Positions 12,181 through 31,390 of a stretch of 64,000 nt of DNA are shown here, one piece after another (position 1 is the first letter of the stretch; every line of letters starts with the position of its first letter). The position numbers and the translations under genes were made by a program. Origin of the DNA: a bacterium HR10 (GTDB taxonomy: Bacteria; Acidobacteriota; Blastocatellia; HR10); the NCBI GenBank assembly GCA_002923315.1, contig BEHM01000007.1, positions 18,598 through 82,597 on the forward strand. The letters run 5' to 3'. The notes beneath the pieces were generated by a model. The model saw only the letters and a program-made list of their open reading frames with translations, did not search any database and was not told the DNA's origin.

Positions 12181-13578
12181 TCAGGGCGCTCCGACTTCCA
12201 GCACCTTTCTCGCTGAGGCCATCACCACCGGCGGATAGGTCGTCGCCAGGACATTCATGGAGCGCATCCGCGCCGGGATCTCCTCGTTCAGGATCTGCGC
12301 CCTCTCCTGCTCCGTCTTCGCCGCCTGTATTCGGGCGATGATGCCCTGCTGCATCCGGTTTTGCGCCTCCGGGGGCGGCGGAGCGAAGAAGATGTACGTC
12401 AGCGTCGCGTGCAACTTAATCCTCCGGCGAGTTCGAGGCCGGGGGAAGCGAAAAGACTCGCGGCGGGTCGTCTCGGCCTCGAGCACGACCTCAAATCCGC
12501 GACCGCTCACATTGTCCACCATGGCCGGCTCATAGCCCTCAGGGTCAACGAAATTGAATCCGTATTCCCTCGTATCGGAGAAGAGTTCGTCGCCTTGTTC
12601 GTCCTGTGCCCAGAACCTGAGCACGATGCGCGTCCTCGGCGGTCAGCCATTGGGAATGCTATGGCCCGTGAGATTCGTCAGTGCGACGGTGGCCCGGATC
12701 TCCTCGCCCGCCGGCTCGGCTTCGATCTCCATCCGCACGGCGCGTCTGAGCAACTCTTCGGATCGCCCCCCGGGGAAGGTGTGATCAACGCGCCCTCGGT
12801 CATCGCGATATCGCATCAGTCCAGCCAGCGCGTACAACATGTTTTTGACCCTGTCGAATCCGCTGAGCCGAACGACCTGTCGTTCTTCGCGCATGTGGCA
12901 GGATTGGCAGGTGATCCCTTCTCTGGCGTAAGACGTCTTCTTCCAGTCCCGGTTGACCGTGCAGCACGGCACACCCGTGACCTCGGGATTAGATGCGTAG
13001 ACCTGATGGGACACGACGGCGCGCGGGTTGTTGTAGTCGTGGCAGGCCGAACAGAGCTCCGACCGTCCAAATAAAGAGGTCCGCTTCACCTTGTGATAGG
13101 GAGGAGTCAACCCCACATCGAGCGCGATCGGCACCTTGGGGTCAGGCACATCCGTCACCCACTCGATGGAGTGGCAAATCGCACAGGTCACGCCTTCGCT
13201 TTTGATCTCGCCGCCGCTCAGCACCTGCTTGGCCAGTTCCGCCGAATTGTTCGTGATCTTCACTTCCGGTGCGTGGCAGTTGAAACAGAACTCGTAATTC
13301 GGGCCCCACACTTCGGGATTCGCTCCGCGCGTGTTGTAGGCGAAGATCGTCAACATGGCTCGAAAGGTGGGTTCATGAATGGAGCGGGCATGATAGGACC
13401 GCCGCCACTGGTTATAAATCTCCTCGTGGCACGGCTTACATGTCTCCGCCGAGGGCAATTCGGCGACCGACGTGTCTCTGGGAACGGCTCTCTCCGAGGG
13501 CCGGATGAACCAGAGCACTCCGGCGAAAATGAGGAGCGCCAAGACAGCGCCGAAGCCTACCTTTCTCATCACGATCAC
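12181..13578 (-). CDS. pentaheme c-type cytochrome, candidate selenoprotein (in-frame TGA at 12643-12645)
   Basis: Five CxxCH motifs (CKPCH, CFNCH, CAICH, CSACH, CQSCH). The 311-aa and 147-aa ORFs are in the same frame, separated only by a TGA in ...NLTGHSIPNG-U-PPRTRIVLRFWAQDEQG.... Confidence 0.75.
12606..12624 (-). promoter_or_regulatory. putative bacterial SECIS hairpin downstream of cytochrome TGA
   Basis: Minus strand GTGCTCAG-GTT-CTGGGCAC, 8-bp stem (one T.G), loop context AGGTTCT, 18 nt after TGA. Confidence 0.6.
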
Positions 13579-13591
13579 CTCCCCCCTGCGA

Positions 13592-14986
13592 TCAGGACCG
13601 CTCTCCCGGCCCGTCGCGGCTCAGTCGGATCGCTACGGGCCGCGCGATCCCGAAGAAGAACACCACGATTCCATACAGGAACAGGCTGAGCGCGCGACCG
13701 TTCCACTCATGGATGAGGTTGATGTATTCCACCACCTGGTACGGCACGCGTTTCATCAGCTCAAACGCGGCCCACAGGCCCACTCCCGTCACGAGCATGA
13801 CAGCGAGCAAAAAGGCGGTCATCCAATAGGCGACTTTGACCTTCCAGTCGGCTTCTGCAGCCGAGGGCCATGGGCGCCCCCGCAACTCGTCGAACGCGCG
13901 CCCGATATCTTCCTTTCGGATGAGCAACCGCCGGAGGAGGTCGCGACGCCTGGCCAAGAAGAGGATGTGCCCAATGAACCCCACGATCAGAGTCAGTCCG
14001 GCCAACCGGTGCACCAAACCACGAACGTCGGCACTGCCGAAGAGCCGAACGAACGGCCTCGTGACGCGGCCCATCATGTGGGCGATCATATCCCCCGAGC
14101 CGGAGGCGTACAGGAGTGTAATTCCGGAACTATCGAGCAACGTGTAGAGCACCAGAAGCAGGAGAATCTGAGCCGCAAACGAGCCGGTGAACACTCCCGA
14201 TGTCGAAGGTCGCGACTTTCCCTTGAGCGTGTGAGCGAGTTCCCGCACGCACGCGAGGGCGAATACCAGGATCACCATCGTCAGCAACATGTAGAAGACT
14301 TTGATGGGCAGCGCCAGCACGCCGATCCCGAAGAGGTTCTTTCGATAGAGCGTTCGCGATGTGGAGAGCGTTCCGAGATTGGCGGCCATGAGGGCCTTGT
14401 CGCTCTCGCGGCTCCCGCCATGACAGCCGGCGCATATGCGCCCGACGTTAGCGGCGTTGATGGGCGAAATCGGGTTGTCGCGAGGCAGCTCATGACCCAC
14501 ATGGCAATAGGTGCAGGCGGGGAGATTTCGTTTCCCCAGAGTCCAGTACTTCCCGTGAAAGTGGTCGAAGAAGACCCCGCGTTCTCGCTCATGGCAGCTC
14601 GAGCAGGTGGCGATGTCGCGCCCCGCGCTGAGGGGAGAGTTGGCCGTCGCGAACTCCCTTGTCCCATGCGAACGGTGGCAGGTCAAGCAGGTGATCTCGC
14701 GAGCCTTCTCCGCCGAAACGCCTTTGTGCTGGAGAAAGGCCTGGCCATGAACGCTGGCTTCGACCTCCCAGCGGGAGACCTCGTGACAACGGGTACAGGT
14801 CTCCAGGGCATACCGTTCGTCCGGACCCAAAGGGATCTCCGGCAATCGCCGAACTTCCCGCGATTTCAACTGAGCCATGACGAGTGCCCTTTCTGGCAGA
14901 TCACCGTGGGCCAGACCGACCGCGAGAACCGTGGCGAGGATCGCCAGCCACCCGAGTCTCTGTGTCCGAGCCGTCGAGCCGAGCAT
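13592..14986 (-). CDS. multiheme cytochrome c with C-terminal membrane (cytochrome b-type) domain
   Basis: CTRCH, CLTCH, CSSCH, CTYCH, CAGCH motifs followed by several TM helices. Confidence 0.85.
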   Translation of the reverse strand: MLGSTARTQRLGWLAILATVLAVGLAHGDLPERALVMAQLKSREVRRLPEIPLGPDERYALETCTRCHEVSRWEVEASVHGQAFLQHKGVSAEKAREITCLTCHRSHGTREFATANSPLSAGRDIATCSSCHERERGVFFDHFHGKYWTLGKRNLPACTYCHVGHELPRDNPISPINAANVGRICAGCHGGSRESDKALMAANLGTLSTSRTLYRKNLFGIGVLALPIKVFYMLLTMVILVFALACVRELAHTLKGKSRPSTSGVFTGSFAAQILLLLVLYTLLDSSGITLLYASGSGDMIAHMMGRVTRPFVRLFGSADVRGLVHRLAGLTLIVGFIGHILFLARRRDLLRRLLIRKEDIGRAFDELRGRPWPSAAEADWKVKVAYWMTAFLLAVMLVTGVGLWAAFELMKRVPYQVVEYINLIHEWNGRALSLFLYGIVVFFFGIARPVAIRLSRDGPGERS

Positions 14987-15066
14987 CGCAACCCCTTAGA
15001 AAGAGCCGAGAGACCCCGGCGTGAGACCACCGGCGGACAAAGAGCGCATCACGCCGGAGCCGGCTC

Positions 15067-15525
15067 TCATCTGGTCGCCGCATCCACGAGCTTCTGCACC
15101 ATGCCATCCATCTGCTGACCCACTGCCGCGAGCTTCGGATTCTTGTAATGCGAGAGCAAGTACGAGGGCCGGTAGTACAGGACGACCACTTCGCCGTTAT
15201 CCAGCTCGCGCACGGCAATGCGCATGGGCATCTCCAGCGCCGCCTTCGGCTCGGCGCCCATCAACATGGCCCCCATCTGTGGGCGCCCGAAGAGAATGGT
15301 GACGCTGTTTTTGCTCTGCACACCGATCATGGCCAACATGTTTTTGTGGTTGGCTTCAAACAGCACCATCATCTGGTTCTGTTCAATGGCCTTCTTCAAT
15401 CGAGATACGGTATCGGCAAAACTGTTTTTCGATTTCACGACCACGGGCTCACCCGCCCTTTGGGCCAGGGCGGGAAGTCCCACGAGGAACAAGACCACGA
15501 GCGCGAAGGATATCCGATTCTTCAT
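15067..15525 (-). CDS. DUF302 domain-containing secreted protein
   Basis: Signal peptide; VVVKSKNSFADTVSRLKKAIEQNQMMVLFEANHKNMLAMIGVQSKNSVTILFGRPQMG...MPMRIAVREL. Confidence 0.75.
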   Translation of the reverse strand: MKNRISFALVVLFLVGLPALAQRAGEPVVVKSKNSFADTVSRLKKAIEQNQMMVLFEANHKNMLAMIGVQSKNSVTILFGRPQMGAMLMGAEPKAALEMPMRIAVRELDNGEVVVLYYRPSYLLSHYKNPKLAAVGQQMDGMVQKLVDAATR

Positions 15526-15605
15526 TTTTCGCTCCCTCCATTTTGAGGATGTGGAGGAGCCACTTCGCCTCCATCGCCCGGAGGTCGGATGGCCCTCTTG
15601 ACCGG

Positions 15606-15986
15606 CTAGGCACAGCAGGCGTCGCTGGTGACCGTCGCGGGTCGCCGCTGCACCTGGCTCTCATACAGCAGCAGCGCCTTATGCACCCACGCTTCGCCCG
15701 GGCAGCCGCCCATCGCCATCGCTACATTCAACATCTCGATCATCTCTTCCCGCGTGACGCCGAGAGCGATGGCTTTCTCAACGTACATCCGCACGCACGG
15801 CTCGCACTTGATGATGGTGGAGATGGCCAGCGCCGTGAGCACCTTCACCTTCGCGGGGAAGAGGCCATCGGCATAGGCGACTTCCCGAATGCGAGCCAGG
15901 GCGTCATGAATCTCAGGACTCAACTCTGCCAAGTCTACGGTGATCATCCCCGTTCTTGCGTCTCTCGCCATCTTTTCTCCCTCCAA
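15606..15986 (-). CDS. carboxymuconolactone decarboxylase / AhpD-like protein
   Basis: ALAISTIIKCEPCVRMYVEKAIALGVTREEMIEMLNVAMAMGG (CxxC of AhpD-like fold). Confidence 0.85.
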   Translation of the reverse strand: MEGEKMARDARTGMITVDLAELSPEIHDALARIREVAYADGLFPAKVKVLTALAISTIIKCEPCVRMYVEKAIALGVTREEMIEMLNVAMAMGGCPGEAWVHKALLLYESQVQRRPATVTSDACCA

Positions 15987-16064: not shown

Positions 16065-16925
16065 TCACGGTTGAGCCGCGCGCACCGCTCCGACCTTGTA
16101 GCCGAGCCGGTCAATCGCGGCTTTGAGCTGCTCCGTACGGACTTTCGCCGGATCGTACTCAACCACGGCTTGACCCTTTTCATAGCTCGCTTCTACGGAC
16201 TTGACGCCCGGCAACCGCTTGAGCGCCTGCTCGACATTCACCGCACAGCCGGCGCAGTCCATGCCGCGGATTTCGATCGTCGCGCGAGCCAAAGCAGGCA
16301 CGTCTTGCAGATTGCGGATTGCGGCGGTGGTGGATGGCGCGCTCGCTGCCGACGTTTCGGCGGCTGAGCCCGCACCCCGAACAGCCTCTCCGTTCGCCTT
16401 CGATGCTGAGCCCCCTCCTCCAACGGATCCTCCACTTCGCGCCGATTCGGCCGCCAGCGCGGGCGAGTCGGTTTGAGGAGGTCGAGACGGCACTCGCTCA
16501 ACGGGTTCCGCCCCCGTCAGCTCGTTCGTTCGTGACCGCAAATGGCTTGCCGAATCAGCCTGCGTCTCCTGCTTGGGTGAGAGCAGCGCCCAGACCGCCC
16601 CAGAGTAATACGGAAACGCGGCGAAGGCGATGACCAGCCCCGTGGCCAACCACAGCAGGATCTTATTCCACCGACCCACCGACGGACGCGTCGCGCATAC
16701 GCTCCCATCGGCACAGTGCACGTCCTGCTTGCGATAGGTGAAATAAAACCCCAGCCCGAGCAGTCCAAAGGTCAACCCCAGCAAATAGGGCCGCCAGGCC
16801 TCGAACACGGCCGCCGCGCCGAAACTCCCCAACCCAACGACCGCGGCCACAATCGGTCCCAGGCAGCAGAGCGACGCCGTAATGGCCGCAATCACGGATG
16901 CGACAAGCGTTGTCTCTCTTTTCAT
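16065..16925 (-). CDS. MerT-like mercuric transporter fused to C-terminal HMA (MerP-like) domain
   Basis: MKRETTLVASVIAAITASLCCLGPIVAAVVGLGSFGAAAVFEAWRPYLLGLTFGLLGLGFYFTYRK...IEIRGMDCAGCAVNVEQALKRLPGV. Confidence 0.88.
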   Translation of the reverse strand: MKRETTLVASVIAAITASLCCLGPIVAAVVGLGSFGAAAVFEAWRPYLLGLTFGLLGLGFYFTYRKQDVHCADGSVCATRPSVGRWNKILLWLATGLVIAFAAFPYYSGAVWALLSPKQETQADSASHLRSRTNELTGAEPVERVPSRPPQTDSPALAAESARSGGSVGGGGSASKANGEAVRGAGSAAETSAASAPSTTAAIRNLQDVPALARATIEIRGMDCAGCAVNVEQALKRLPGVKSVEASYEKGQAVVEYDPAKVRTEQLKAAIDRLGYKVGAVRAAQP

Positions 16926-17083
16926 GGTTTGTACCCTCCATCGTTTGTTCGCTGAGAGAAGCCCCGAAGAAAATCCTCGATGACCGGACAGGCCAGGTCG
17001 CCGGCGATAGCCCGCTCGCACGTGGCTTCGTATCCCGCCAACTCGCGCCTCAACCGTTTGATCTCTTCGGACATCACCGACAT
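16922..17083 (-). pseudogene. truncated MerR-family regulator (C-terminal effector-binding part only)
   Basis: MSVMSEEIKRLRRELAGYEATCERAIAGDLACPVIEDFLRGFSQRTNDGGYKP is homologous to the C-terminus of the MerR at 21320-21760 (EEIKRLRRELSAYKAACERAVAGRKSCPVIEDFL) but has no HTH. Confidence 0.65.
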
Positions 17084-17452: not shown

Positions 17453-17985
17453 TTATTGGCTGGGGCGGTGTGATGCTAAGTCGAAACTCTCTACGGCCAG
17501 GACGAACGCGCCGCCTTTTCGCTCGAGCAGTTTCCCCCTCAGCGTGATCTCCTGATTCTGAACCCCTTCCGTGGCCTTCAGCTTCTTGAAACGTTCGTTC
17601 TTGGCGAGGACGAACACCTCTCTCCCGTTTCGAGGCGTAATGGTCCACTCCTTCGCAGTTGAGGTGACCCGCCCAACAACCGTGATCTCGATCTCTTTGA
17701 CGGGATCAAAACCCAACTCGTCCTTGAGCACCGAGAGGATTCTCCTCACCTCGAACGGGGCTTGGGCACTGGCCTCAAGCTCGACAACACCGGCGCGCGA
17801 GTAGTTCGCCTTCTCGACGCCATCCTGGCGCCGGAGCAGAGCCCTCACCGTCTCCGGTCAAAGGACCTTCAGCGCCTTTTCGCCTCGACATCGCCGACCA
17901 CCTTGAGACGAATCGGCGCCTCCTGCGCTCCCACTGGTAAAGAGGCACAAAACAAGAGCAGTACGATCATTGAGACTCTCGTCAT
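17453..17985 (-). CDS. secreted HMA-like protein, candidate selenoprotein (TGA 17858-17860), apparent -1 frameshift at A4 run 17877-17880
   Basis: Signal peptide frame MTRVSMIVLLLFCASLPVGAQEAPIRLKVVGDVEAK, then after a -1 shift KALKVL-U-PETVRALLRRQDGVEKANYSRAG... joining the 131-aa ORF. U aligns with U of the paralogue at 24701-25264 (12 residues before GV). Confidence 0.5.
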
Positions 17986-18533: not shown

Positions 18534-18542
18534 GGCCTCACC

Positions 18543-19070
18543 TCACGTCTCCGTCACGGCGCAGCCATCGGGCATCGGGGCCGCGACAGCTTCTTCCCGC
18601 GTCCTTGTCGAATCCGATCGCTTCAAGAGTCTGATCGCGATCTCGGTCACCACGCCCAGGCAGCACCGGCCCGATGGGTTCATGATCTCACACGCGCATC
18701 GGCCGGCCTTGACCTGCGCCTTGATGTAATCGGGAATCGTCGTGCGTCCCGTCGAGGCGATCTCATCGCGCACCATCTTCTCCGTGATGCCGAAGCAATA
18801 GCAGATCGGCACCGGATCCTCGGTCTCCTTCACTCCCACCCGCACGCGCACGTCACTTTTGTAGAAGCGCGCATCGGCCTCGTTGGAGAAGTACACGACC
18901 GGACACGTGGGCGTCGCGCAGAAAAAGTGAGGATGATCGGTAAGACGCGCCACTGCCGATTCTACGAGCAGGTGCTCCATCGTCCGCCGCGCGACGGACT
19001 TTCCTTTCCGCCCGCACACGCGGCAGTGAGCAGAATAGACCGCGACCGGCACCTGACAACATTTGGACAT
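18543..19070 (-). CDS. iron-sulfur CopZ-like metallochaperone
   Basis: Cys-rich: N-terminal CCQV/CRVCG zinc-binding segment and CYCFGITEKMVRDEI...RCACEIMNPSGRCCLG [2Fe-2S]-like motif. Confidence 0.75.
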   Translation of the reverse strand: MSKCCQVPVAVYSAHCRVCGRKGKSVARRTMEHLLVESAVARLTDHPHFFCATPTCPVVYFSNEADARFYKSDVRVRVGVKETEDPVPICYCFGITEKMVRDEIASTGRTTIPDYIKAQVKAGRCACEIMNPSGRCCLGVVTEIAIRLLKRSDSTRTREEAVAAPMPDGCAVTET

Positions 19071-19106: not shown

Positions 19107-20474
19107 TCAGACCATGTAGCTCACGTCCGACGAGCTGCTCGGATAGGCATAAGGCATCCGCTTCAGATCAGCCGCGCGAAGCCCCAGCCTGATGGCCAGA
19201 CCAAACAGATTGATGACCTCTTCAGCATGCGGGCCCAAAAGATGCGCGCCGAGAATCCGATCGCTCCCCTCCTCGACGAGCACCTTGAACCCGGAATGCG
19301 TCATTCCCACTCGGCGCGACGAATACCAGCCGGATGTATCCCCGCGCTTGACCGTGAACGTCAGCCCCTCTTCGCGAGCTTTCTCCTCATGCATCCCCAC
19401 CGAGGCCAGAGGCGGGATCGTGAAGACGACCGTCGGCACACCGGTGTAATCCGGGCGGCGGTGATTCCCTTCGAGGAGATTACTGGCCACGACCTGCCCT
19501 TCGATGGCGGCCACGGGCGTCAGCGGCGGGCCGCCGCTGGCCGCCACATCGCCGGCCGCATAGACCGCCGGATTCGAGACGCTCTGAAGATATTCGTTGA
19601 CGAGGACGCCTCGCCGATCGCTCGCCACGCCCGCCACGTCCAGCTTGAGATCCTCGATGTCCGGCACGCGCCCCGCACCGTGCACCACGAGATCGGCTTC
19701 AAACGTGTGCTCAACGCCTCCAGCGCGAGCTTTCACGATCAGGCCGCCCGATCGCCGCTCGATGGCCTCAACCGATGTGTCGAGTCGAACGTCTATGCCG
19801 AGGTCTCGCGTCGCCCGCACGAGCTGATCCACCAGATCCGGATCGAATCCTTTCAGCGGACGCGCTCCTCGGTGGAGGATCCGAACGTGAGCGCCCGCCC
19901 GCGCCGCCACATGCGCGAACTCGAAGGAGATATACCCCCCGCCGACGAACACGATGCGCTCCGGGAGCCGGTCCAGCTCCAGGAACTCATCGCTCGTCGT
20001 CAGGAACTCTTCGCCCGGAATCCCGAGCCGGGCCGGGCGCGCGCCCGTCGCGATGACCACATGCCGAGCCGCCAGCTCTTCATCCCCCACGGCGACGGCC
20101 GTCGGAGCCACGAACCGAGCTCGACCATGCACGGTCACGATCCCGGCTTGAGCGAATCGCTTCTCTCGGTTCTCCGGAATCGGATCGGTGAACGTGCGCT
20201 TGAAGCGCATCAGGTCCGACCACTCGATCCGACACCCATCCGAGGCGATCCCTTTGCCCGTCATCCTGCGCGCCCAGTCCACGACTTCGGCGGCTCCCAC
20301 GAGAACTTTCTTCGGATCGCAACCCCGCAAGGCGCACGTCCCGCCAAACGGCCTCGAATCAATGACGGCGACGCTCCATCCGGCTGCCCGACACCGATAG
20401 GCCACCGTCGCAGCCGCCGTCCCCGTCCCGATGACGATGAGATCGAATTGTCGCGCCATGATCGCCTTCCTCAC
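19107..20474 (-). CDS. FAD-dependent pyridine nucleotide-disulfide oxidoreductase, mercuric-reductase-like
   Basis: GTGTAAATVAYRCRAAGWSVAVIDSRPFGGTCALRGCDPKKVLVGAAEVVDWA; NAD-binding GGGYISFEFAHVAARAG. Confidence 0.88.
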   Translation of the reverse strand: MRKAIMARQFDLIVIGTGTAAATVAYRCRAAGWSVAVIDSRPFGGTCALRGCDPKKVLVGAAEVVDWARRMTGKGIASDGCRIEWSDLMRFKRTFTDPIPENREKRFAQAGIVTVHGRARFVAPTAVAVGDEELAARHVVIATGARPARLGIPGEEFLTTSDEFLELDRLPERIVFVGGGYISFEFAHVAARAGAHVRILHRGARPLKGFDPDLVDQLVRATRDLGIDVRLDTSVEAIERRSGGLIVKARAGGVEHTFEADLVVHGAGRVPDIEDLKLDVAGVASDRRGVLVNEYLQSVSNPAVYAAGDVAASGGPPLTPVAAIEGQVVASNLLEGNHRRPDYTGVPTVVFTIPPLASVGMHEEKAREEGLTFTVKRGDTSGWYSSRRVGMTHSGFKVLVEEGSDRILGAHLLGPHAEEVINLFGLAIRLGLRAADLKRMPYAYPSSSSDVSYMV

Positions 20475-21286
20475 AGGACGGCCTTGAAGCCGGTCCTGTT
20501 GATCGCCTCAACCACCTGCTCGAGCGTGAGGCGTGCCGGATCGAACGTCACGACGGCGTGCTTCTTCTCGACGCTGACCTCCACGGCTTTCACCCCGTCG
20601 CGCCGCACGAGCGCCTGATGGACCGACGCCGCACACCCGGCACAGGTCATCCCTTCGACGGGAATGGTCGCCGTCACCGCCTTGACCGTGAAGCCGGCCT
20701 CCTTGACCGCCTCCACGAGCTTTTCTAACCGGACCCGCTCGGGATCGTACTCGACGGTGGCTTCGCCCTTCTCGTAGCTGGCCGTCGCCGAGCGCACTCC
20801 GGGAAGAGCTTCGAGCGCCGACGCCAGAGCGGCCGCGCACCCGCCGCAGGTCATGCCGCCGACTTCCAGCCGCACGCTCATCAGCCGCTCGACCGCAGCC
20901 GATGCGACCGATTGCTCCTTCGACGGACCGTTCAACCCCGCCCAGAATCGCCCGGAATAATAGGGAAACGCGGCAAAGAGCACGATCACGACCGTAGCGG
21001 TCCACAAGACCCCCTTCTGCCATCGCGAGGCCTTCCTGGTCGCGCATGTGCCATCGGCGCACGCCACGTCTTTCCGGCGATAGGTGAGATAAAACGCCGC
21101 CGCCAGCAGCGCGAACGTCACGACGAGCAAATAGGGTCGCCACGCTTCGAATGCGGCCGCCGCGCCGAAACTCCCCAACCCGGCGACCACGGCCACAATC
21201 GGTCCCAGGCAGCAGAGCGACGCCGTGATCGCCCCAATGAGCGCAGCTCCGAGTGTGATCTTCTCTCTCATCATCCCTCCTTCCAC
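20471..21286 (-). CDS. MerT-like transporter fused to two HMA domains
   Basis: TASLCCLGPIVAVVAGLGSFGAAAAFEAWRPYLLVVTF followed by VGGMTCGGCAAALASALEALPGV and VEGMTCAGCAASVHQALVRRDGV. Confidence 0.88.
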   Translation of the reverse strand: MEGGMMREKITLGAALIGAITASLCCLGPIVAVVAGLGSFGAAAAFEAWRPYLLVVTFALLAAAFYLTYRRKDVACADGTCATRKASRWQKGVLWTATVVIVLFAAFPYYSGRFWAGLNGPSKEQSVASAAVERLMSVRLEVGGMTCGGCAAALASALEALPGVRSATASYEKGEATVEYDPERVRLEKLVEAVKEAGFTVKAVTATIPVEGMTCAGCAASVHQALVRRDGVKAVEVSVEKKHAVVTFDPARLTLEQVVEAINRTGFKAVL

Positions 21287-21319: not shown

Positions 21320-21760
21320 TCACTCGCGCTTCCGCCCCCGCCGGGGCTTTGACGCGCGAGAGGAAGGGTGAAGAAAATCTTCGATGACCGGACAGCTCTT
21401 CCGCCCGGCGACGGCGCGCTCGCACGCGGCCTTATAGGCCGAGAGCTCGCGACGCAATCGTTTGATCTCCTCATACCGCCGATCGAGATCCTCGAGCTTG
21501 CGCGCGATCACCTGCAGAACCTCCGCGCACGTCCGCGGTTCGGCCGTCGGCAACTGGAGCAATTGTTTGATCTCCTCGAGCGTGAAGCCGAAGCTCTGCG
21601 CCCGCTTGATGAAGCTCAGGCGCTCGATCACGCGCGGATCGTACAGCCGATACCCGCTCTGCGTCCGAGCGGCCCTCGGCAAAAGCCCCAACCGTTCATA
21701 GTAGCGGAGCGTATCCACGCTCACGCCACATTCGGTGGCCACCTGGCCGATCTTCAACAC
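21320..21760 (-). CDS. MerR family transcriptional regulator (Hg/heavy metal type)
   Basis: KIGQVATECGVSVDTLRYYERLGLLPRAARTQSGYRLYDPRVIERLSFIKRAQSFGFTLEEIKQLL plus conserved Cys (RTCAEV...KSCPVIEDF). Confidence 0.88.
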   Translation of the reverse strand: MLKIGQVATECGVSVDTLRYYERLGLLPRAARTQSGYRLYDPRVIERLSFIKRAQSFGFTLEEIKQLLQLPTAEPRTCAEVLQVIARKLEDLDRRYEEIKRLRRELSAYKAACERAVAGRKSCPVIEDFLHPSSRASKPRRGRKRE

Positions 21761-21794
21761 GTCACTTCTCCTCCGCTCGTTTTCACAACCGGCA

Positions 21795-21826
21795 GTATAA
21801 ACCCTGGACCTACCTCCAGAGTCAAG
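21795..21826 (-). promoter_or_regulatory. MerR-type promoter/operator
   Basis: Minus strand TTGACT-CTGGAGGTAGGTCCAGGGTT-TATACT, 20-bp spacer with inverted repeat, immediately upstream of the MerR gene. Confidence 0.75.
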
Positions 21827-22219
21827 AGAAAGCTTCAGATGTGCCAACCCTGGTCAGGCACGAGCGGTTCCCTGGCGGCCATCGCATCTGCAGCGATGAC
21901 GAACCGATCACCAAAGCCATCCTTCAGGATGCGAAGGGAGATCGGGCGTGCGCACGTCGCCGCTGGACCAAGCCTTGGCAAAGCAGGGGCATCGAGATCT
22001 CGTCGCATCGCCACAACCGCCAGCGGCCCATGGCCCGGGAAAGTCGCCAGCGGAGGCGCTATAGTCGAGCAGAGGAAGATGAAGCCCGGCGCGGGGACTT
22101 TCCACGTGCACGAGGAGGTGCTTCGGCGGGTTGCACCGAATATATCGAGCGGAGTCTCGCTGGCGCGCGAATTCATCATTTCGCCCGAATCGGGGCGACT
22201 TCTTGAGTCGCCCCTTCAA

Positions 22220-24403
22220 TCATCTGGGTCGGCGCGCGCGCTCGATCGCCTCCAGCGCTGCTGTCAACCACTTCTCGCCCTGGTCGCCGAAGCCCACCTG
22301 CTCCAGGAGCACGGTGCCTTCTCGGCCGACCAGCCAGTTGCGCGGGATGCTCACAAGCGGCAGGACGCTCTCCACATACGAATAGGCCGGGATGACCGGG
22401 AAACCGAAGCCATGCTTGTTGACGTAAGGCTCCACCAATCCGACATCCGCATCCACGTTGAACGTCAGCACGAGCACATCCGGATGATCTTTCAGGCGCT
22501 CATAGAGCATCTGCACGTAGGGCAACTCCTCGCGGCAGGGGCCGCACCACGTCGCCCAGATATTGATGAACGTGATTTTGCCTCGGAGATCGGCCAGCCG
22601 CCAGGTTCGCCCTCGAAGGTCCTGAAGCTCGAAATCGGGAAGGGGCATCCCGCGCTCCTCCCATGCGCCGGAGGACGCTTCCCCCATCGGTGCCGTTGTC
22701 CGCGCCACCCACGCATGCCATCCTTCGGTCGTTCCCCCAAGCTCTTTCCACAAGCGCTCGACCCGTTTCGTCAGATCCTCTTTTGACGCGCCTTTGTCGT
22801 CAGGCTCGGGCCTCTCCAGCAGCGCCCTTTGATAAAAGGCGAGGGCGTCAAGCTTTCGGTTTTCGGCCTCGGCCAGCCGCGCCATCCACTCCCAGTAGAT
22901 CGCCTGACGTCGAGCGTGGAGGCGCCTTTCCTCGCTCGGAGCCGACTCTTGCGGTTTTCGCCGGGCCAGAAAGTCTTCCATCTGAATAAGCACTTCGCGC
23001 GCCTTCTCCCGCCGGTTCATCTTCAGGTAGGCGTCGAGCAGGATCGGCCACCCGAGCCAGTAGGTGTAGTCCACATTACCTTGAAGGGCTCTTTTCGCCT
23101 CGGCCGAAAGGTCGTCGCGTCGGACGTCTCGCCCCGTTCTCCGCTCGATCTCGCGGAAGCCGCGCTCAATCAGTTCCGGGACGCGTTCGAGTCGAACGCC
23201 ACGCTTGAGATAGAGCTGAGCGACCTGAATGGCCGGGGGCGGCAGGGAATAAAAGAGGTCGGACTGTTTTTCCGAAGCGCTCAGCAGGCGCTCACCGATC
23301 GTCTCGATCTCGGCAGAAGGGAGATCGTCCAGCTCACTTGCGGCCTCAAGTCGTCTCAGCCATGGAGCGGGATGATCGGGCCAGCGTTGAATCCATTCCT
23401 CGGTTGCGCGGAAGAGGGCGCGAGAGTACGCTCGGCGCTTCTCCGGAGGGTCGGTCTCGTCGGGGCGAGGGTGAGCGGCGTTCCATCGGTCGTAGACGAT
23501 GAGCCCCATCACACCGCGGGAGTGAGGGAATCGGTGCAGCATCTCATCTTCCGCCCAGCGAAGGCCCTGGGCGTCGCCAGTCATCTCGTATCCTGTGCGA
23601 AGCGTCAAAAGTCCACGCAAGGTGTTGCCCAACCCCAGACCGCGCAGTCGCGCGAGGTCTTCTGCAATCTGTTTTCGGAGTTGCGGATGTTCCGTCACGG
23701 GCTTCGCCTGAAACTCCAGTCGCCACAGGATTCGGTAATAGGAGAGGTCTTCGGGATCGGTCCGGCTCTGAAGCCATGCGCGCAGCTTTTTGGCGGCCTC
23801 GGCGAGGAACTCCCGATCGTCCATCCGGCCGACAAGCTCATACGCCTCTACACTCGAGGGGCAGAGCGCCATGAACGTCTCCAGATGGGTGCGCGCTTTC
23901 TGCAGATCTTTCCAGGGGCCCTGAAGATGAATTCGGGCCAGCGCCAGGTGAGCCAGCGGGAAGTTGGGCGCCTGCTCGATGGCCTTTTCGAGAAGCGCGA
24001 AGGCGTAGTCGGTCTGTCGGCCGATGAGGCTGTTGCCGTACAGGTACAAAGCGAGAGGATCCTGCGGCTGTCGTTCGAGTCGTGCCTTATACTCGGCGAT
24101 CAGTGAATCCAACTCCTCGTCCATGACCTGCTCGATGAAGCCCAGGTAGCGACGATGGATGAAGGGATCGTCAGGGAATCGTCTCAAGAGAGGGCGCAGG
24201 ATGGCCAATCCTCGCTCTCGGCGTTGTTCTCGTCCCGTGCGCGCGTCATCATCGAAGGACAGTTGCTGGAGGGCCAGTTTCACTTCCGGAGAGGGCTCAC
24301 AGGGATAGTTCACCACTTGTGGCCAGACAGAAGCTTCAAGCGTCACGCCGAGCACGCCGCTCAAAACGACCTGCTGCAGCGTGATCTTCTTGTTGGCCTT
24401 CAT
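22220..24403 (-). CDS. TPR-repeat protein with C-terminal TlpA/ResA thioredoxin-like domain
   Basis: Signal peptide, TPR-like helical repeats, C-terminal FINIWATWCGPCREELPYVQMLYERLKDHPDVLVLTFNVD. Confidence 0.85.
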   Translation of the reverse strand: MKANKKITLQQVVLSGVLGVTLEASVWPQVVNYPCEPSPEVKLALQQLSFDDDARTGREQRRERGLAILRPLLRRFPDDPFIHRRYLGFIEQVMDEELDSLIAEYKARLERQPQDPLALYLYGNSLIGRQTDYAFALLEKAIEQAPNFPLAHLALARIHLQGPWKDLQKARTHLETFMALCPSSVEAYELVGRMDDREFLAEAAKKLRAWLQSRTDPEDLSYYRILWRLEFQAKPVTEHPQLRKQIAEDLARLRGLGLGNTLRGLLTLRTGYEMTGDAQGLRWAEDEMLHRFPHSRGVMGLIVYDRWNAAHPRPDETDPPEKRRAYSRALFRATEEWIQRWPDHPAPWLRRLEAASELDDLPSAEIETIGERLLSASEKQSDLFYSLPPPAIQVAQLYLKRGVRLERVPELIERGFREIERRTGRDVRRDDLSAEAKRALQGNVDYTYWLGWPILLDAYLKMNRREKAREVLIQMEDFLARRKPQESAPSEERRLHARRQAIYWEWMARLAEAENRKLDALAFYQRALLERPEPDDKGASKEDLTKRVERLWKELGGTTEGWHAWVARTTAPMGEASSGAWEERGMPLPDFELQDLRGRTWRLADLRGKITFINIWATWCGPCREELPYVQMLYERLKDHPDVLVLTFNVDADVGLVEPYVNKHGFGFPVIPAYSYVESVLPLVSIPRNWLVGREGTVLLEQVGFGDQGEKWLTAALEAIERARRPR

Positions 24404-24551
24404 CGTGCCCTCCTTATCGGAAGGAACTCTGCCAGAAGATAGCGTCACATTCAAGCGCGGCGAGGCTATGAGCGTCACCGGCTCGGCAAGGGGCTGCCGC
24501 CATGGCACGTGAGGCATTGGACCAGGGCGTTCCGCCGTGCGGCAGCACTCG

Positions 24552-24700: not shown

Positions 24701-25264
24701 TCAGATTCTCCCCCGCAACAGGCGCAGCACCATTCTCCCGCCAAGTCCGAGACCATCCTCGCGCAATGGCTCAAAGCTCTCGACGGTGAGACCGGGCGGA
24801 CGATCCGCATGGCTGGGATGAAGCTTTCCGGCCACGCGGATTTTCTTCCCCACCAGGTCAGTCCGTTTTCGGAGCGCGTCTGCCTGCGCTCCACCGGCCA
24901 GCACGAACGAATGATCCAGCCCCGGAACATCGAGCGTGAGGAATTCTCCCTCCGCAATCAATGTCCCATCAACCACCACCACAATAGCGGTTGGGGTGAA
25001 GCCCGCATCCCGGAGCGCCTTGGGGATCAGAACGGGATCGAAGGATTTTCCGGTCTGGGGAAACACCTTCACTTCTCCTCTCACCAAATTCACGTCGGCA
25101 TGATCAACGCCTTCCAGGCGCTGGAGGGCTTTCTGTGCCCCGCGCGCTCAGAGGGGACAAAAGAGGCCGTCAATTTTTACCGTCGCCGTCACCACCTGAG
25201 CCGATACCGGTGCGGCGGAAAAAAGGCCGAGGAGAAGCAAAAGCCATAGGCTTGCTCTTTTCAT
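24701..25264 (-). CDS. secreted HMA-like protein, candidate selenoprotein with CPLU motif (TGA 25148-25150)
   Basis: Minus strand from ATG 25264: MKRASLWLLLLLGLFSAAPVSAQVVTATVKIDGLFCPL-U-ARGAQKALQRLEGVDHADVNLVRGEVKVFPQ...; the TGA is in frame with the 130-aa ORF and replaces the second Cys of the HMA CxxC. Confidence 0.72.
25109..25129 (-). promoter_or_regulatory. putative SECIS hairpin downstream of the CPLU TGA
   Basis: Minus strand GCC-C-TCCAG-CGC-CTGGA-A-GGC, 18 nt after TGA. Confidence 0.5.
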
Positions 25265-25421
25265 CCGCTTCCTCATCTTCAAACCCTCCGATGAAGTTGT
25301 GTCGCGCCACCCTCAGCGCTTATCGAGTCCCACAAAGAGTCCGTAACAGAGCGAGAGCCCGTCGCCAACCAGAGATGCTCTGCGCCGACCGTCTCGCGTT
25401 TCGTCAACTCTCTGAGGCTCA

Positions 25422-26435
25422 TTAGAACAAAAATCGGAATCCGAGAAGAAAGGTCGAACGAGGCTCCGGTTGCCTCCCGTTGAGCGCTCGGACGACCGGA
25501 ATCGGAGCCGAGAACTCGACCAAAAATCGGTCGCTCAGGAAGTACTGGATTCCCGGTGAGACCGAAAGCGTCGTCCCGCCGGTGTCAGGCACTGCCTCGC
25601 CCCGACGGCGGGCGCGAGCTTGCCAGGTGCCGTTCATTTCCACGACGAGATACGCCCCATGGCGGAACAACCGATCAAGGGCCCGGCGCGGCCACCCGGC
25701 CCGAGCGCCTGCCGGGACGTCGCCCGATGAGATGACAAAGCGCGACAGAGCGGCGTCAAACCGGAGCCGGTCGCCCATTGACATTCCCTGGCGGTTCTCG
25801 GTCGCACGAGTGTATTCGAAATCGCCGCTGAAGACGTGTTTCAACCTCACCGCCTTCTGGAAGACCAACCCGCCAGTGTAAGCCACCGCCCCCGTCGAGA
25901 ACCGATCGGCACCGGTGGGCACCTGCACCCCAAAGACCGCCGATAGCCGTGTCATCCCGCCGGGAGCATTGCGGCTGTAGAGCCCACCGTATTGAACGAA
26001 TACTCGCGTATCGGCTAACCCGCTCACGCGCTCCCGCTCTGCCTCACCCCCCATCCGATGGGTCGCATCTACGATCGCGTAAGGCTGAGCCAGGATGACC
26101 ATCCAGCCCGGGGAAAATCCGTAGACAACGGTCACCGCCGGAACATACTGAGTGACGCCGACAGATCCCCCCTCCATTCGAAGAGAAGAATGTCGAATTT
26201 CAACGGATGAGCGGATGAGCGTCGCCCGATTGAAGAGCGTCCGGGCGCTCGGCGCCACGATGGTCTGAGCGCGCCCTTCGGCCGATGAAAGACCCATGCC
26301 GCCGATGAACACGAGCACGATGCCCCAGGACGCCGGTCTCCGAGATCGCGCAGGCTTCCCGGCCGGCTTTTCCCGAAGCGCAGCCGTCGAGGCGAAGGCC
26401 GCTACGAATCCCGATGTTTCCGACCGATGCGGCAT
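25422..26435 (-). CDS. predicted outer-membrane beta-barrel/transporter-like protein
   Basis: N-terminal hydrophobic segment, alternating beta-strand-like repeats, C-terminal aromatic residue (FLLGFRFLF). Confidence 0.55.
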   Translation of the reverse strand: MPHRSETSGFVAAFASTAALREKPAGKPARSRRPASWGIVLVFIGGMGLSSAEGRAQTIVAPSARTLFNRATLIRSSVEIRHSSLRMEGGSVGVTQYVPAVTVVYGFSPGWMVILAQPYAIVDATHRMGGEAERERVSGLADTRVFVQYGGLYSRNAPGGMTRLSAVFGVQVPTGADRFSTGAVAYTGGLVFQKAVRLKHVFSGDFEYTRATENRQGMSMGDRLRFDAALSRFVISSGDVPAGARAGWPRRALDRLFRHGAYLVVEMNGTWQARARRRGEAVPDTGGTTLSVSPGIQYFLSDRFLVEFSAPIPVVRALNGRQPEPRSTFLLGFRFLF

Positions 26436-26449
26436 GTGACGGCCCGTTG

Positions 26450-26749
26450 TCAAAAGAGGCGGAGGCTCCAAAGCAAGGCCGAGACGCCCGTCCCCGCCCA
26501 TACTGTGAGGCGAGCCGTTTGCCCTCCCTGCCCCTTCACGCTCACCAGATAATGCGCGCGCAGCAAAGCGCACACGGTGAGCGCCCCGAAGAGCACTTTT
26601 CCGCGGGCGAAAATCACGTGCGCGGCGATGGCGCCTGCTGTCCCGAGCAGGGCGAAGACCGTCGGCGCCAGTCAGCACCAGGGGAGCGACGCCAGTACCG
26701 CCACCCCACTGCAGATCGGCCCCCACCGCGAAGCGCGCTGCTTCTCCAT
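26450..26749 (-). CDS. MerT-like small membrane protein, candidate selenoprotein with Cys-Sec (CU) motif (TGA 26672-26674)
   Basis: MEKQRASRWGPICSGVAVLASLPWC-U-LAPTVFALLGTAGAIAAHVIFARGKVLFGALTVCALLRAHYLVSVKGQGGQTARLTVWAGTGVSALLWSLRLF; hydrophobic pattern and CC->CU match MerT TM1 (compare ASLCCLGPIVAAVVGLG at 16065-16925). Not in the ORF track because of the internal TGA. Confidence 0.68.
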
Positions 26750-26857: not shown

Positions 26858-27031
26858 TCACTTCTTCAGCGGACAGGCGTCGCGGCAGATGATCTTGCCC
26901 GTGAGCGGGCAGACGATCCGACCCGGGCAGCTCGATGGGCTCTCGGACGACGCCTTGAACCCATAGAGCACTCCCGATCCGATCGCTCCGCTCAACACGA
27001 GCAACAACACGATCCGGCGCATTCGTCGCAT
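26858..27031 (-). CDS. small secreted/anchored Cys-rich protein
   Basis: MRRMRRIVLLLVLSGAIGSGVLYGFKASSESPSSCPGRIVCPLTGKIICRDACPLKK; 57 aa between merR and the MerT-like gene. Confidence 0.6.
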   Translation of the reverse strand: MRRMRRIVLLLVLSGAIGSGVLYGFKASSESPSSCPGRIVCPLTGKIICRDACPLKK

Positions 27032-27034
27032 CGG

Positions 27035-27484
27035 TCATCCCTCCTTTCCGTGATCTGGGCGGCGATGCTGGGCCAGCGTCATGATGAGCGAGCAGACATA
27101 GGGCGAGGAGTCCGCTTGATCGGGCATCGCGTCCAGTTGGGTGAGCAGAGCGGCCAGCTCCCGGCGAAAGGCTCGCAGTTCGGCGATCTTTCGATCCAGC
27201 GCCCGAAGCTTTTCCCGAAGCAAGGCTCGGACTCGCGCGCACGGCGATCGCCCCTCGCGGCTGAGCATGACAAGCTCTCGAATCTCCGCCAGCGACAGCC
27301 CCAGCGCCCGCGCCGCTCGAATGAAGCGCAGCCGCAAGAGCGCCGCCTCATCGTAGAGGCGATAGCCCGAACGCGTCCGCGCCGCCCGCCCCAACAATCC
27401 CTCCCGCTCGTAATAGCGAACCGTCTGGGGCTTCACCCCCACGGCCCGCGCCAGCTCGCCGATGTAGAACGTCCGACCCGACAT
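27035..27484 (-). CDS. MerR family transcriptional regulator
   Basis: YIGELARAVGVKPQTVRYYEREGLLGRAARTRSGYRLYDEAALLRLRFIRAARALGLSLAEIREL. Confidence 0.88.
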   Translation of the reverse strand: MSGRTFYIGELARAVGVKPQTVRYYEREGLLGRAARTRSGYRLYDEAALLRLRFIRAARALGLSLAEIRELVMLSREGRSPCARVRALLREKLRALDRKIAELRAFRRELAALLTQLDAMPDQADSSPYVCSLIMTLAQHRRPDHGKEG

Positions 27485-27508
27485 CTCACGCCTCCTTTCA
27501 CACCCGCT

Positions 27509-27540: not shown

Positions 27541-27673
27541 GCCCCATTTTTCAGCGGGGGCAGAGCGAACGCCCCTGGAGAGCTTCGGTGTGTAATCTCG
27601 ACTACTGAACGCCCCGATCGGATGGCGCTAAGCTGGTGGCTCAATGCGAATTTCCGATCTGCCGGAGACGATC

Positions 27674-28381
27674 ATGACCGATCGAAGAATACCGGATGGC
27701 ATTGTCCGACGCCGGAGCGCGAGGCCCCCCTTCCGGCCGCGCCTACGGCCGACTATTTCGGCCCACACGATACTCTCGACAGATGCCCTGAGACGCTCAG
27801 GAGCACGAGGAGCCGTTCGCCTCTCGCAGGAACTCGCCGTAGTGATCGCCGTCGTCCTGGCTGCCGGAATATCGTTCATCGCCGGCAGCAGAGGCGCATG
27901 GTCACGCGTCTCGGCTCATGATCCGACTCTCGCCGTTGCAGCCGACAAGGATGCCGATGATAGGGGTCGGCCCGCGCCGGAGCTCGAGCTTGTGGATGTT
28001 CGCGGTCGCCCGGTGAGTTTGGCCGCCCTCAGGGGTAAAGTTGTGATCGTGGATTTTTGGGCGACCTGGTGCCCTCCGTGCGTGATGGAAGTCCCGACCT
28101 TCAAGAAGCTCCACGCGACGTATCGAGATCGGGGGCTGGAGATCATCGCCATCTCCTTGGACGAGGACGAACGAGAGGTCAAAACGTTCATCCAGAAACA
28201 CGCCATCCCCTACACCGTCATCCTCGGCGATGAACAGATCGCGGAGAAGTTCGGCGCGTTGACGGGACTCCCCATGACGTTTTTCATTGATCGGAAAGGT
28301 CGCATCCGCGCCGAGCACGCCGGTTTCATGGACGAGGAGGATTTCGTCCGCGAGGTCGAACGATTGCTGTCGGAGTCGTGA
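27674..28381 (+). CDS. TlpA/ResA-family thioredoxin-like protein
   Basis: KVVIVDFWATWCPPCVMEVPTFKKLHATYRDRGLEIIAISLDED; N-terminal membrane anchor. Confidence 0.88.
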   Translation: MTDRRIPDGIVRRRSARPPFRPRLRPTISAHTILSTDALRRSGARGAVRLSQELAVVIAVVLAAGISFIAGSRGAWSRVSAHDPTLAVAADKDADDRGRPAPELELVDVRGRPVSLAALRGKVVIVDFWATWCPPCVMEVPTFKKLHATYRDRGLEIIAISLDEDEREVKTFIQKHAIPYTVILGDEQIAEKFGALTGLPMTFFIDRKGRIRAEHAGFMDEEDFVREVERLLSES

Positions 28382-28502
28382 TTCGCTCTGGCTCCGCTTC
28401 TCCTCTCGATGATGCGAATGTGGTAGACTCATGCACTGTGACTTGCCGAAAACGGCCGACACGGGGTATAGATCGCAAGGGGCGCCCTGAAGGAGGTGAG
28501 GA

Positions 28503-29573
28503 ATGATCGTGACGCTTCGACGATTTGGCCGGCTGACCGCGCCGCTCGTCGCTCTGTTGACGATGGGACTTATGAACGCCGCTTCTCAGTTTCAGAAAGA
28601 CAAGCTCTTCGTCGTCACCCAATTTCCCCCGGAGTTGACCGATCCGGAGTTCATCCCCGCCACCCATCCCGACGGTGGCTACCTGGATGACACCGAGACG
28701 GTGATAGGCATAGCGCTGGAGGGAGAGAGCCGGGCCTACCCGCTCCGGATCATGGCCTATCATCACGTCGTCAACGACGTCGTCAGGGGCCGACCCATCG
28801 TCCTGGCCTACTGACCGGTCTGCGGGACGGGAGTCGGGTTCGACTCCGTGACACAGCAGGGGAAGCGGCTCGCATTTAAGCCGCACGGATTGTACAATGC
28901 CGAACTCGTGTTCGCCGACACCGAAACGGGAAGCGTCTGGTCATTGACGAGCGGCGAAGCGATGGACGGTCCGCTCGCAGGCCAAAGACTCAACAAACTC
29001 GCGGTCGTGCAGACGACCTGGGCGAAGTGGAAACAGCTCCATCCCGATACGCTGATCGTTTCCAACCGGACGCCACATCAAGCCCACTACAAGCCGTTTC
29101 GCTGGCAGCCGCGCCAGCTCAGCCCCGTTTTCGAGCGCACGCTCACGCATCGGGATGAGCGGCTGGGGAGAATGGAGCTGGTCCTGGCGGTGGCCCTGGG
29201 CGATGAACGCAAAGCCTATCCCTTATCCACGCTCAAGCAAGCGGGCGGCGTGGTCAACGATGTCGTCGGCGGCGTGCCGATCGTCGTCTTCTACGACCCA
29301 CAAACGAACACCGCAGCCGCTTACGAGCGCACGCTGGGCAAACGGGTGCTCCGCTTTGAGAACGCGGATCGGCAAGGGGAACGGCTCGAGGCGGTGGATA
29401 CGGCGACGCGCTCCCGGTGGAACCTGGCCGGTCGCGCCGAGTCGGGCCGATGGCGCGGTGAGCAGCTTCAGCCGGTATCGGCTCACACGGGAGCCTGGTA
29501 CGCCTGGGCCGCCTACTTCCCGGATACGAAGATTTACACGCCGGCCGCTCGCCAAAGGGGACGCCAGAAGTAG
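28503..29573 (+). CDS. DUF3179-like protein, candidate selenoprotein with UPVC motif (TGA 28812-28814)
   Basis: 103-aa ORF ending ...VVNDVVRGRPIVLAY is followed in frame by TGA then PVCGTGVGFDSVTQQGKRLAFKPHGLYNAELVF...; the Cys of the family CPxC motif becomes U; hairpin 12 nt downstream. Confidence 0.82.
28827..28849 (+). promoter_or_regulatory. putative bacterial SECIS hairpin
   Basis: ACGGGAGTCG-GGTT-CGACTCCGT, 9 bp with one bulged G, loop GGTT, 12 nt after TGA. Confidence 0.65.
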
Positions 29574-29737
29574 CGGCGTATGACTGCGCGGGGTCCCCAT
29601 GTGATCCATAGAGCGTATGAGGTGCCCGAGCGCCCATGTCACGCCTTTCGCGATCGCCGCCATCGGGCGTTCAAGCGGAGGTTCACGGAAAGGGACTCCG
29701 CGTTCGGCCAAAAAAATAGATATGTGGAGGTCAACCG

Positions 29738-30235
29738 ATGAACAACGCTGTGGTTTATCGTTCGCGGGTACGGATTGAGCGCGTCGCGGGCCCGCTCCGG
29801 CGGGCCTATCTTCCGGCGGAAGCGCAGCCGGTGCTCTTCGGCGTCCATTCCGAAGTCGCCGCGCACTACGGCGTTGATCCGCGCGTTCATGAGCCGCACG
29901 CCACAACGCTCGATTATCTGGTGGCGGCGGCAGCGGGCTGACTCACCGGCACCTTCGGTGGCGCGCTGGAAGCGCGCGGCATCCCCGCTGGAGAAGGACG
30001 GCTCACCTCGGAGGCCACGGGCGAAGTGGAAGCCGACGGGCGCGTGCTCGTCGTGCGGCGCATTCACGTGACGTATCATCTGCGCCTGAGACCGGACAAG
30101 CGCGAGGCCGCCATCCGGGCTCACGAAAAGCACGTCGAATACTGCCCCGTTGCTCGAACCATCGGCGGCTGCGTAACCATCACGACTTCGCTCGAGATGG
30201 AGGACCTCGCCGAAGATGCCGCCGATGCCGGTTGA
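29738..30235 (+). CDS. OsmC/Ohr family protein, candidate selenoprotein (TGA 29939-29941)
   Basis: ...ATTLDYLVAAAAG-U-LTGTFGGALEARGIPAGEGRLTSEATGEVEADGRVLVVRRIHVTYHLR...HVEYCPVARTIGGCVTITTSLEM; U at the OsmC first catalytic Cys, second Cys (EYCPV) conserved. Confidence 0.82.
29961..29977 (+). promoter_or_regulatory. putative SECIS hairpin downstream of OsmC TGA
   Basis: GCGCGCT-GGA-AGCGCGC perfect 7-bp stem 19 nt after the TGA. Confidence 0.55.
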
Positions 30236-30385
30236 GCCGACGCCGGGAAGAAGCTCATTCGGCAGTGGAGCGCTCCATGCGATCTCCGAATCGCATGAGA
30301 ATCCACGTGCGGTTTCTCCGCCGAAAGCCGGGGCGTGAGTCCATTCGACGGAGTTTTCAGCAACCCTCATGATGGGAGGTCAACG

Positions 30386-31390
30386 ATGAAGACATCGGTT
30401 CTGATTGCCGCTCTCTGTTGTCTGATGGGTCCGGGCGGGCTCATCGCGTTCGTTCAGGAGAAACAATATCTCGATGCGGGTCCGGGTCAGCGCCCGTTCG
30501 ACGTCACCAAGCGCTCGGTTCCACTCGAAGACATTCAAGGCGGCGGACCGCCTAAAGACGGCATCCCGGCTCTCGACTCGCCCACATTCGTCTCGGCTCG
30601 CGAGGCCGAAAAATTCCTGCGTCCTTGGGACCGCGTCTTAGGTGTTTCGCTCGCCGGCGCGGCCAAAGCCTACCCGATCAAGATCCTCAACTGGCACGAG
30701 ATCGTCAACGATCGGGTTGGGGATCGGCCCATTCTCGTCACCTGGTGACCGCTGTGCAGTTCGGGCGTCGTGTACGACCCGATCATTGACGGCAAGCGAT
30801 TCACCTTCGGCGTGTCGGGCAAGCTCTACAAGGCGGCTCTGGTCATGTACGACCGCCAGACCGAGAGCCTCTGGTCGCAGCTCATGCAAGAAGCCATCGC
30901 CGGACCGATGACAGGAGCGAAGCTCGCCGTCCTGCCGAGCCTCCACACGACGTGGGAATACTGGCGGGCGCAATATCCTCAGACGCTCGTCCTCTCGCCC
31001 GAGACGGGATTCCGCCGCGATTACGGCTTGAATCCCTATCAAGAATACTGGGAGATGGGCCAGCCGCCACGGTTCCGGCGCCCGCCCAAAGCGAAGAAGT
31101 CGAACGTCACACTCAGGCCCATGGAGCGCGTGCTCGGCCTCTCGGTGGACGGCGCGAAGAAGGCCTATCCCTTCTCCGTGTTGAAGAAGAAGCCCGAGCG
31201 ATTCGAGGATCACGTCAGCGGGAAGAAGGTCATCATCCACTTCGACAAGAAATCGGAGACCGGATACGTCACCGATGAGCGTGGGTCTCTCATCCCTTCG
31301 ATCGCCCTCTTCTGGTTCGCGTGGAGCGATTTTTATCCCGACACGGAGGTCTACGGCGAGGAGCCGACACGGCAACAGCCGGTCCGTTGA
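30386..31390 (+). CDS. DUF3179-like protein, candidate selenoprotein with UPLC motif (TGA 30746-30748)
   Basis: ...EIVNDRVGDRPILVTW-U-PLCSSGVVYDPIIDGKRFTFGVSGKLYKAALVMYDRQTESLWSQ...; same architecture as 28503-29573. Confidence 0.82.
30761..30782 (+). promoter_or_regulatory. putative bacterial SECIS hairpin
   Basis: TCGGGCGTCG-TGTA-CGACCCGA (two bulges), 12 nt after TGA, same spacing as the other DUF3179 gene. Confidence 0.55.

Follow-up and report, generated by a model that had tools for sequence, protein, structure and literature searches.

Seven open reading frames (ORFs), packed into 19 kb of the window (the whole 64-kb stretch analysed here, from contig 7 of the genome of bacterium HR10), are interrupted by in-frame TGA codons and are very probably genes for selenocysteine (Sec)-containing proteins. 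Direct support for this reading comes from gene structure, conservation, the exchange of Sec and Cys among homologues, hairpins resembling the Sec insertion sequence (SECIS) and the presence of the Sec machinery. We further favour, with rather less assurance, a role for the cluster in handling a soft metal of the Hg(II) kind. The host is an uncultured, probably hot-spring acidobacterium, whose genome comprises 3.13 Mb in 118 contigs and is 87.5% complete; the HR10/GAL08 order of hot-spring Blastocatellia has been described previously (PMC8787282). The seven genes, with U marking the predicted Sec, are:

12181..13578, minus strand: five-heme c-type cytochrome, ExtKL-like (PF13435); Sec codon 12645-12643 in GHSIPNGUPPRTR
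17453..17985, minus strand: periplasmic protein with a degenerate HMA and a C-terminal domain; Sec codon 17860-17858 at the second metal-ligand position
24701..25276, minus strand: protein with signal peptide, HMA domain (MerP/CopZ-like, PF00403) and OB fold; Sec codon 25150-25148 in CPLU (CxxU)
26450..26749, minus strand: short MerT-like membrane protein of 99 residues; Sec codon 26674-26672 in a vicinal PWCU
28503..29573, plus strand: DUF3179 selenoprotein 1 (PF11376, E 2.7e-72); Sec codon 28812-28814 in YUPVC (UxxC)
29738..30235, plus strand: OsmC-family selenoprotein (PF02566, E 1.1e-13); Sec codon 29939-29941 in AAGULTG
30386..31390, plus strand: DUF3179 selenoprotein 2 (PF11376, E 1.6e-88); Sec codon 30746-30748 in WUPLC (UxxC)

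Conservation and proposed decoding of the internal TGA codons

TGA was verified at all seven sites, which lie in genes on both strands and in separate units. A preliminary description of this DNA had presented seven ORFs with one in-frame TGA each; the codons are all there, but the gene at 17858 is not a single open frame in the window. When TGA is read as Sec, the other six ORFs are joined into coherent proteins, namely the cytochrome, the HMA-OB protein, the MerT-like protein, the two DUF3179 proteins and the OsmC protein. Each of the seven TGAs aligns with a TGA in the independently assembled genome of a congener, Bacterium HR08 (G004, contig BEHK01000001.1; G000 is the host, other G numbers are compared genomes and L numbers compared DNA stretches), which is syntenic with the window region at 75-85% DNA identity. 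Hence, the expectation that related organisms would not replace these codons by unrelated residues holds in this other species for seven of seven. The ratio of nonsynonymous to synonymous substitution rates (dN/dS, Nei-Gojobori) is 0.09-0.63 for each stretch of at least 18 codons on either side of a TGA, the upstream side at 17858 offering only six comparable codons. Judged by this sequence measure, selection is purifying both upstream and downstream of the TGA wherever enough sequence can be compared.

When the 64 kb were scanned by codon usage for stops with coding signal on both sides, the sites at 12645, 28812, 29939 and 30746 emerged together with six others (1928, 18545, 22222, 27037, 52829 and 55086), which were rejected as resembling ordinary gene ends. 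The sites at 17858, 25148 and 26672 are unsupported by the scan and their case rests on homologues. No TAA or TAG candidate was found in the 64 kb, where these codons are together about three times rarer than TGA (766 versus 2246).

The host encodes the components needed for decoding, as the preliminary description had proposed to check: selA, selB and selD score well over curated cut-offs, and a tRNA-Sec (selC; 75 bits, anticodon TCA) is located on a contig other than that of the window, in which Rfam and tRNA scans of the 64 kb gave no match. Of 20 genomes searched, the host among them, 19 have a tRNA-Sec match over the cut-off. The selD gene (G000:C15:1909-2835, L042) is itself interrupted by a single in-frame TGA, which fits a Sec-containing selenophosphate synthetase, and the host therefore has selenoproteins beyond the cluster.

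The hairpins previously noted downstream of the codons also hold up, as a group rather than site by site. We used a scorer of our own (not bSECISearch) that considers hairpins with an apical loop starting 13-37 nucleotides after the codon and a G within the first two loop positions, and takes the best of them. The median best hairpin is -12.3 kcal/mol at 35 UGA sites, -7.4 at 26 Cys sites of homologues in the same columns and -7.25 at 240 random in-frame sites (Mann-Whitney: UGA versus random p = 1e-10, UGA versus Cys p = 2e-5, these values being optimistic because the sites are partly related and some are near-duplicates; Cys and random sites do not differ). Many of the loops share GG or UGGA cores. 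Unconstrained single-sequence folds of the 55 nucleotides after each UGA gave weak signals against shuffles (z mostly -0.6 to -2.3), so that the informative comparison is only the loop-constrained one with matched controls. By the mechanism that we propose, SelB with Sec-tRNA(Sec) would read the internal UGA as Sec, directed by the hairpin just downstream, while UGA elsewhere in the genome would keep terminating.

Two alternatives to recoding have to be weighed. If the genes were decaying, or the reads erroneous, TGAs might arise by chance; the window copy of the 17858 gene, with its one-nucleotide deletion, and the fragmented, incomplete assembly lend this some colour. Yet the same TGAs stand in the genome of G004, which was assembled independently, and some of them in wider relatives, selection acts on both sides of them, and, in keeping with what had been claimed at the outset, comparable TAA or TAG cases are lacking in the scan. 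Conservation and selection thus refute decay or error for six genes, the 17858 gene excepted, and overall we consider this explanation very improbable. Still less credible is a genome-wide code change in which TGA means Trp or Gly, as might be thought from seven readable in-frame TGAs within a single window. TGA terminates 26 of the 31 listed ORFs of the window, which refutes such reassignment and points to context-dependent recoding; moreover, the internal TGAs fall in Cys columns and tRNA-Sec, SelA, SelB and SelD are present.

Families of the predicted selenoproteins

The DUF3179 and OsmC assignments are clear. The two DUF3179 proteins score 244 and 297 bits against PF11376 (cut-off 27), with UxxC in both. 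The first carries one TGA in the host and G004 genomes (dN/dS 0.21/0.14 on the two sides), and for the second (0.17/0.25) the column of codon 30746 has TGA in eight distinct relatives, itself counted, TGC or TGT in twelve others and nothing else. The OsmC protein scores 51.9 bits against PF02566 (cut-off 27.5), and alignment to OsmC 1ukk places its Sec at the first conserved, peroxidatic Cys. Its type has five matches among 162 genomes of the class, all five with TGA, and its dN/dS is 0.09/0.10.

The cytochrome (dN/dS 0.14/0.17) has five CXXCH hemes, its Sec lies in the C-terminal domain, and its best model is NF040886 (ExtKL, E 2.3e-36); we class it as ExtKL-like rather than ExtKL. Five other ExtKL-like proteins from this phylum have TGA in the GHxxPxxUP column; at 151-208 bits they likewise fall under the NF040886 cut-off of 250. 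Remote homologues have Ile or Val in this column, so Sec is not a plain substitute for Cys there. The preliminary description placed six of the seven TGAs at or next to Cys positions; Cys or Sec does stand in the column in the homologues of six genes, the cytochrome being the exception, and at the DUF3179, OsmC, MerT-like and HMA sites, homologues have TGA or Cys only. A plasmid search returned remote cytochromes only and no MerT-like match.

The HMA domain of the protein at 25148 scores 35.1 bits against PF00403 (cut-off 24.8), with CxxU as its metal site, and 31.7 bits against NF041115, the UxxU metal-binding selenoprotein model, well below its cut-off of 95. At this site the window protein has CxxU, its counterparts in G004 and several members of the phylum have UxxU, others have UxxC and many CxxC. 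An AlphaFold2 model from an alignment of two sequences (predicted local distance difference test score, pLDDT, 76; the other four models 53-56) consists of a beta-alpha-beta-beta-alpha-beta domain and, after it, a small barrel. By Foldseek, the domain is similar to CopZ, ATP7B and MerP (E 2e-4 to 3e-3), and the remainder shows weaker similarity to OB folds. A search of contigs with the HMA-OB pair matched only the sister contig BEHK01000001. In G249 an exported HMA protein with UxxC (L099:2900-3292, AITGMTUDSCVQT) and a UxxU HMA-OB protein are encoded about 3.5 kb apart, and MerR, MerT and CopZ-type genes lie in the same region.

The 17858 protein is a full-length paralogue of the HMA-OB protein (E 2e-8) in which the first ligand position is missing. 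It had no match in Pfam or NCBIfam and does not reach the HMA gathering score at the sequence level. The real start is ATG 17985, with a signal peptide, in a frame other than that of the TGA; the gene is intact in G004 (L048:18741-19271), where the TGA is kept and, there only, the upstream side is in frame. Among the 162 class genomes this type is confined to the window genome and G004.

The protein at 26672 matches NF033560 weakly (E 5.7e-5), while hhalign to the local MerTPs gives 78% with CU aligned over CC; from its sequence, it may function like MerT. The pair is CU in the window, G004 and G008, UU in G421 and CC in the local MerTPs. The G421 gene (L092:1501-1755) has two adjacent in-frame TGAs (LPWUULLP), so that its product, a membrane protein, is predicted to bear a vicinal diselenol.

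Neighbouring genes and the putative role of the cluster

The MerT-like and HMA-OB genes belong to an operon-like run on the minus strand consisting of a MerR-family regulator, a small Cys-rich ORF, the MerT-like gene, an outer-membrane-type protein and the HMA-OB gene. The neighbouring genes are:

16065..17021, minus strand: MerT plus HMA protein, all-Cys (PF02411, PF00403)
18543..19070, minus strand: CopZ N-terminal-type Fe-S/Zn metallochaperone, Cys form (NF047645, 143 bits, cut-off 100)
19107..20474, minus strand: MerA/glutathione-reductase-like flavoprotein disulfide reductase (TIGR02053, 303 bits, under the cut-off of 454)
20471..21286, minus strand: MerTP fusion with two HMA domains, all-Cys (NF033556, 204 bits, cut-off 180)
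21320..21847, minus strand: second MerR-type regulator, upstream of MerTP, similar to the 27035 MerR-family protein
25422..26444, minus strand: outer-membrane-type protein (Phenol_MetA_deg, PF13557, E 2e-9), between the MerT-like and HMA-OB genes
27035..27484, minus strand: MerR-family regulator heading the run (best NCBIfam match ZntR, E 8.8e-33)

The small exported Cys-rich ORF (26860-27040, minus strand; CPGRIVCPLTGKIICRDACPLKK) directly follows the MerR gene and is 88% identical in G004. A cytochrome c/b561-type gene (13592-14986) adjoins the ExtKL-like cytochrome. At 22220-24517 on the minus strand lies an all-Cys protein of 765 residues with an N-terminal TPR-like part and a C-terminal TlpA/ResA thioredoxin (WATWCGPC), for which the compared stretch of the G004 contig yielded no full-length counterpart. 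The gene at 19107-20474, for which the glutathione reductase model scores slightly above MerA, is not assigned to the MerA family; it coincides exactly with a gap in the alignment to G004 (L048). As the metal region is otherwise collinear between the two, a recent gain or loss of this gene is indicated. A promoter scan gave a result at chance level.

Similar kinds of genes recur elsewhere: G008 has MerR, an outer-membrane-type protein of the same Phenol_MetA_deg family, HMA-OB, MerT, an NHL-repeat protein and a MerT-like CU protein, and G421 a similar set. This recurrence, together with the MerTPs, CopZ and the MerA-like reductase nearby, suggests soft-metal handling. The proposed group would comprise the MerR-type regulator, the Cys-Sec MerT-like membrane protein and, in the periplasm, a pair of HMA-OB proteins in which Sec serves as a metal ligand; the selenolates would bind Hg(II) or a similar thiophilic metal and then pass it on. 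Alongside it, a second group with periplasmic redox functions seems to be made up of the DUF3179-OsmC-DUF3179 trio and the cytochrome; in it, two UxxC DUF3179 proteins would flank an OsmC-type peroxidase with a peroxidatic Sec, joined by the five-heme ExtKL-type selenocytochrome. Among the genomes compared, this trio and cytochrome were not found beside metal genes outside the genus. More tentatively, and on present evidence we think it rather doubtful, the Cys-Sec membrane protein and the HMA-OB carriers might form a dedicated selenolate route for capture and transfer of Hg(II), with the peroxidase, DUF3179 and cytochrome module shielding or recharging the selenols. Hg(II) is the candidate that first suggests itself, although the regulator is nearest to ZntR and the reductase scores under the MerA cut-off. 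The mercury theme of the preliminary description is thus plausible from the MerT-, MerP- and MerR-type neighbours, which would equally fit Zn, Cd, Cu or Hg.

A third alternative grants that the selenoproteins are real and opposes only their union in a single mercury system: unrelated genes would lie near each other in a lineage that swaps Cys and Sec readily, in a region that gathers metal and redox genes. The genes do lie on both strands in separate units, the MerR protein is closest to ZntR, and in other genomes DUF3179, OsmC, MerT/HMA and ExtKL are found apart; for instance, in L097 and L098 the OsmC gene is not flanked by a homologue of any other scanned selenoprotein, and in G249 the ExtKL and HMA-OB genes are on separate contigs. 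Against this stand the recurrence of the MerT-like/HMA-OB pairing in G008 and G421 and the retention of the whole set together in G004. We regard the odds on this explanation as even.

Several points weigh against our preferred interpretation of a selenoprotein cluster with a soft-metal role. Sec insertion itself, the metal handled and the cooperation between the two groups are what we infer from the genes. The cytochrome reaches 125.3 bits against the NF040886 cut-off of 250. The protein at 26672 has no Pfam match and does not reach the PF02411 gathering score, being only distantly MerT-like. For the regulator at 27035..27484, the models following ZntR are CadR, MerR and CueR, all of them under their cut-offs. 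Relative to G004 the window copy of the 17858 gene is one base short near 17877-17881, and this copy may therefore be broken or mis-assembled. Finally, DUF3179, OsmC and 17858-type genes were not found in G001-G003, which are of the same genus as the host, and the selenoprotein set is therefore accessory.

Comparison with known selenoprotein systems

Reviews list DUF3179 (UxxC/T), OsmC, MerT (C/SxxU), UxxU metal-binding and ExtKL selenoproteins (PMC9312934, PMC13188914), and a marine survey reported a MerP selenoprotein (PMC2398784). Multi-gene selenoprotein operons are also known, with six genes in SAO and three in Tso (PMC13188914). Hence, the density that had seemed striking stands as a count, seven genes in 19 kb, while the rarity claimed for it is tempered, as nearly all the families had been listed and such operons described. 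Under a rule from this review literature that another Sec position defines a separate subfamily, the MerT-like CU/UU, HMA-OB CxxU/UxxU and 17858 types are candidate new subfamilies. What appears to be new is the HMA-OB architecture, in which CxxC, CxxU, UxxC and UxxU interconvert, along with the MerT-like CU, which is UU in one relative, and the cluster as such; we found no description of the same gene set in the open-licence literature.

Under standard annotation each of the seven genes ends at its UGA, whereby metal and redox proteins of this lineage would be missed or called pseudogenes. According to the reviews (PMC9312934, PMC13188914), the presence of Sec in heavy-metal proteins is predicted and its function there unresolved. 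The HMA-OB series from CxxC through CxxU and UxxC to UxxU and the MerT-like CC, CU and UU pairs constitute a natural experiment on the effect of selenolates in metal binding, and such matched Cys/Sec pairs make testable the old question of why some proteins bear the cost of Sec.

Set against individual families, the DUF3179 proteins have the same domain and UxxC as those reviewed (PMC9312934, PMC13188914), the two copies here flanking an OsmC gene. The OsmC protein likewise has its Sec at the first conserved Cys, as in a family listed since the marine metagenome surveys, and only its neighbourhood differs. With ExtKL of the Geobacter extHIJKLMNOPQS cluster the cytochrome shares the five CXXCH hemes, and its Sec column is that of the ExtKL-like relatives; by its score it is a divergent branch, and it lies outside a recognised ext cluster. 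The HMA fold with Sec in place of CxxC ligands is common to the NF041115 UxxU protein, MerP and CopZ (PF00403), to which the window protein adds a C-terminal OB-like domain and CxxU, whereas the 17858 protein retains the second ligand only. A MerT-like helix with Sec beside HMA and MerR-type genes recalls the MerT selenoprotein (PF02411, C/SxxU; NF045683 for the MerT/CopZ fusion), but in the single-domain window protein the Sec is in a vicinal pair. Among the cluster proteins scanned, which are part of those of the window, none matched the Sao (SaoB, C, L, P, T, X) or Tso families over the cut-off. The SAO (Sec-assisted organometallic) and Tso operons nevertheless offer the closest parallel in organization, with several selenoprotein genes grouped around a proposed metal or organometal chemistry, there in a single operon and here in several transcription units on both strands.

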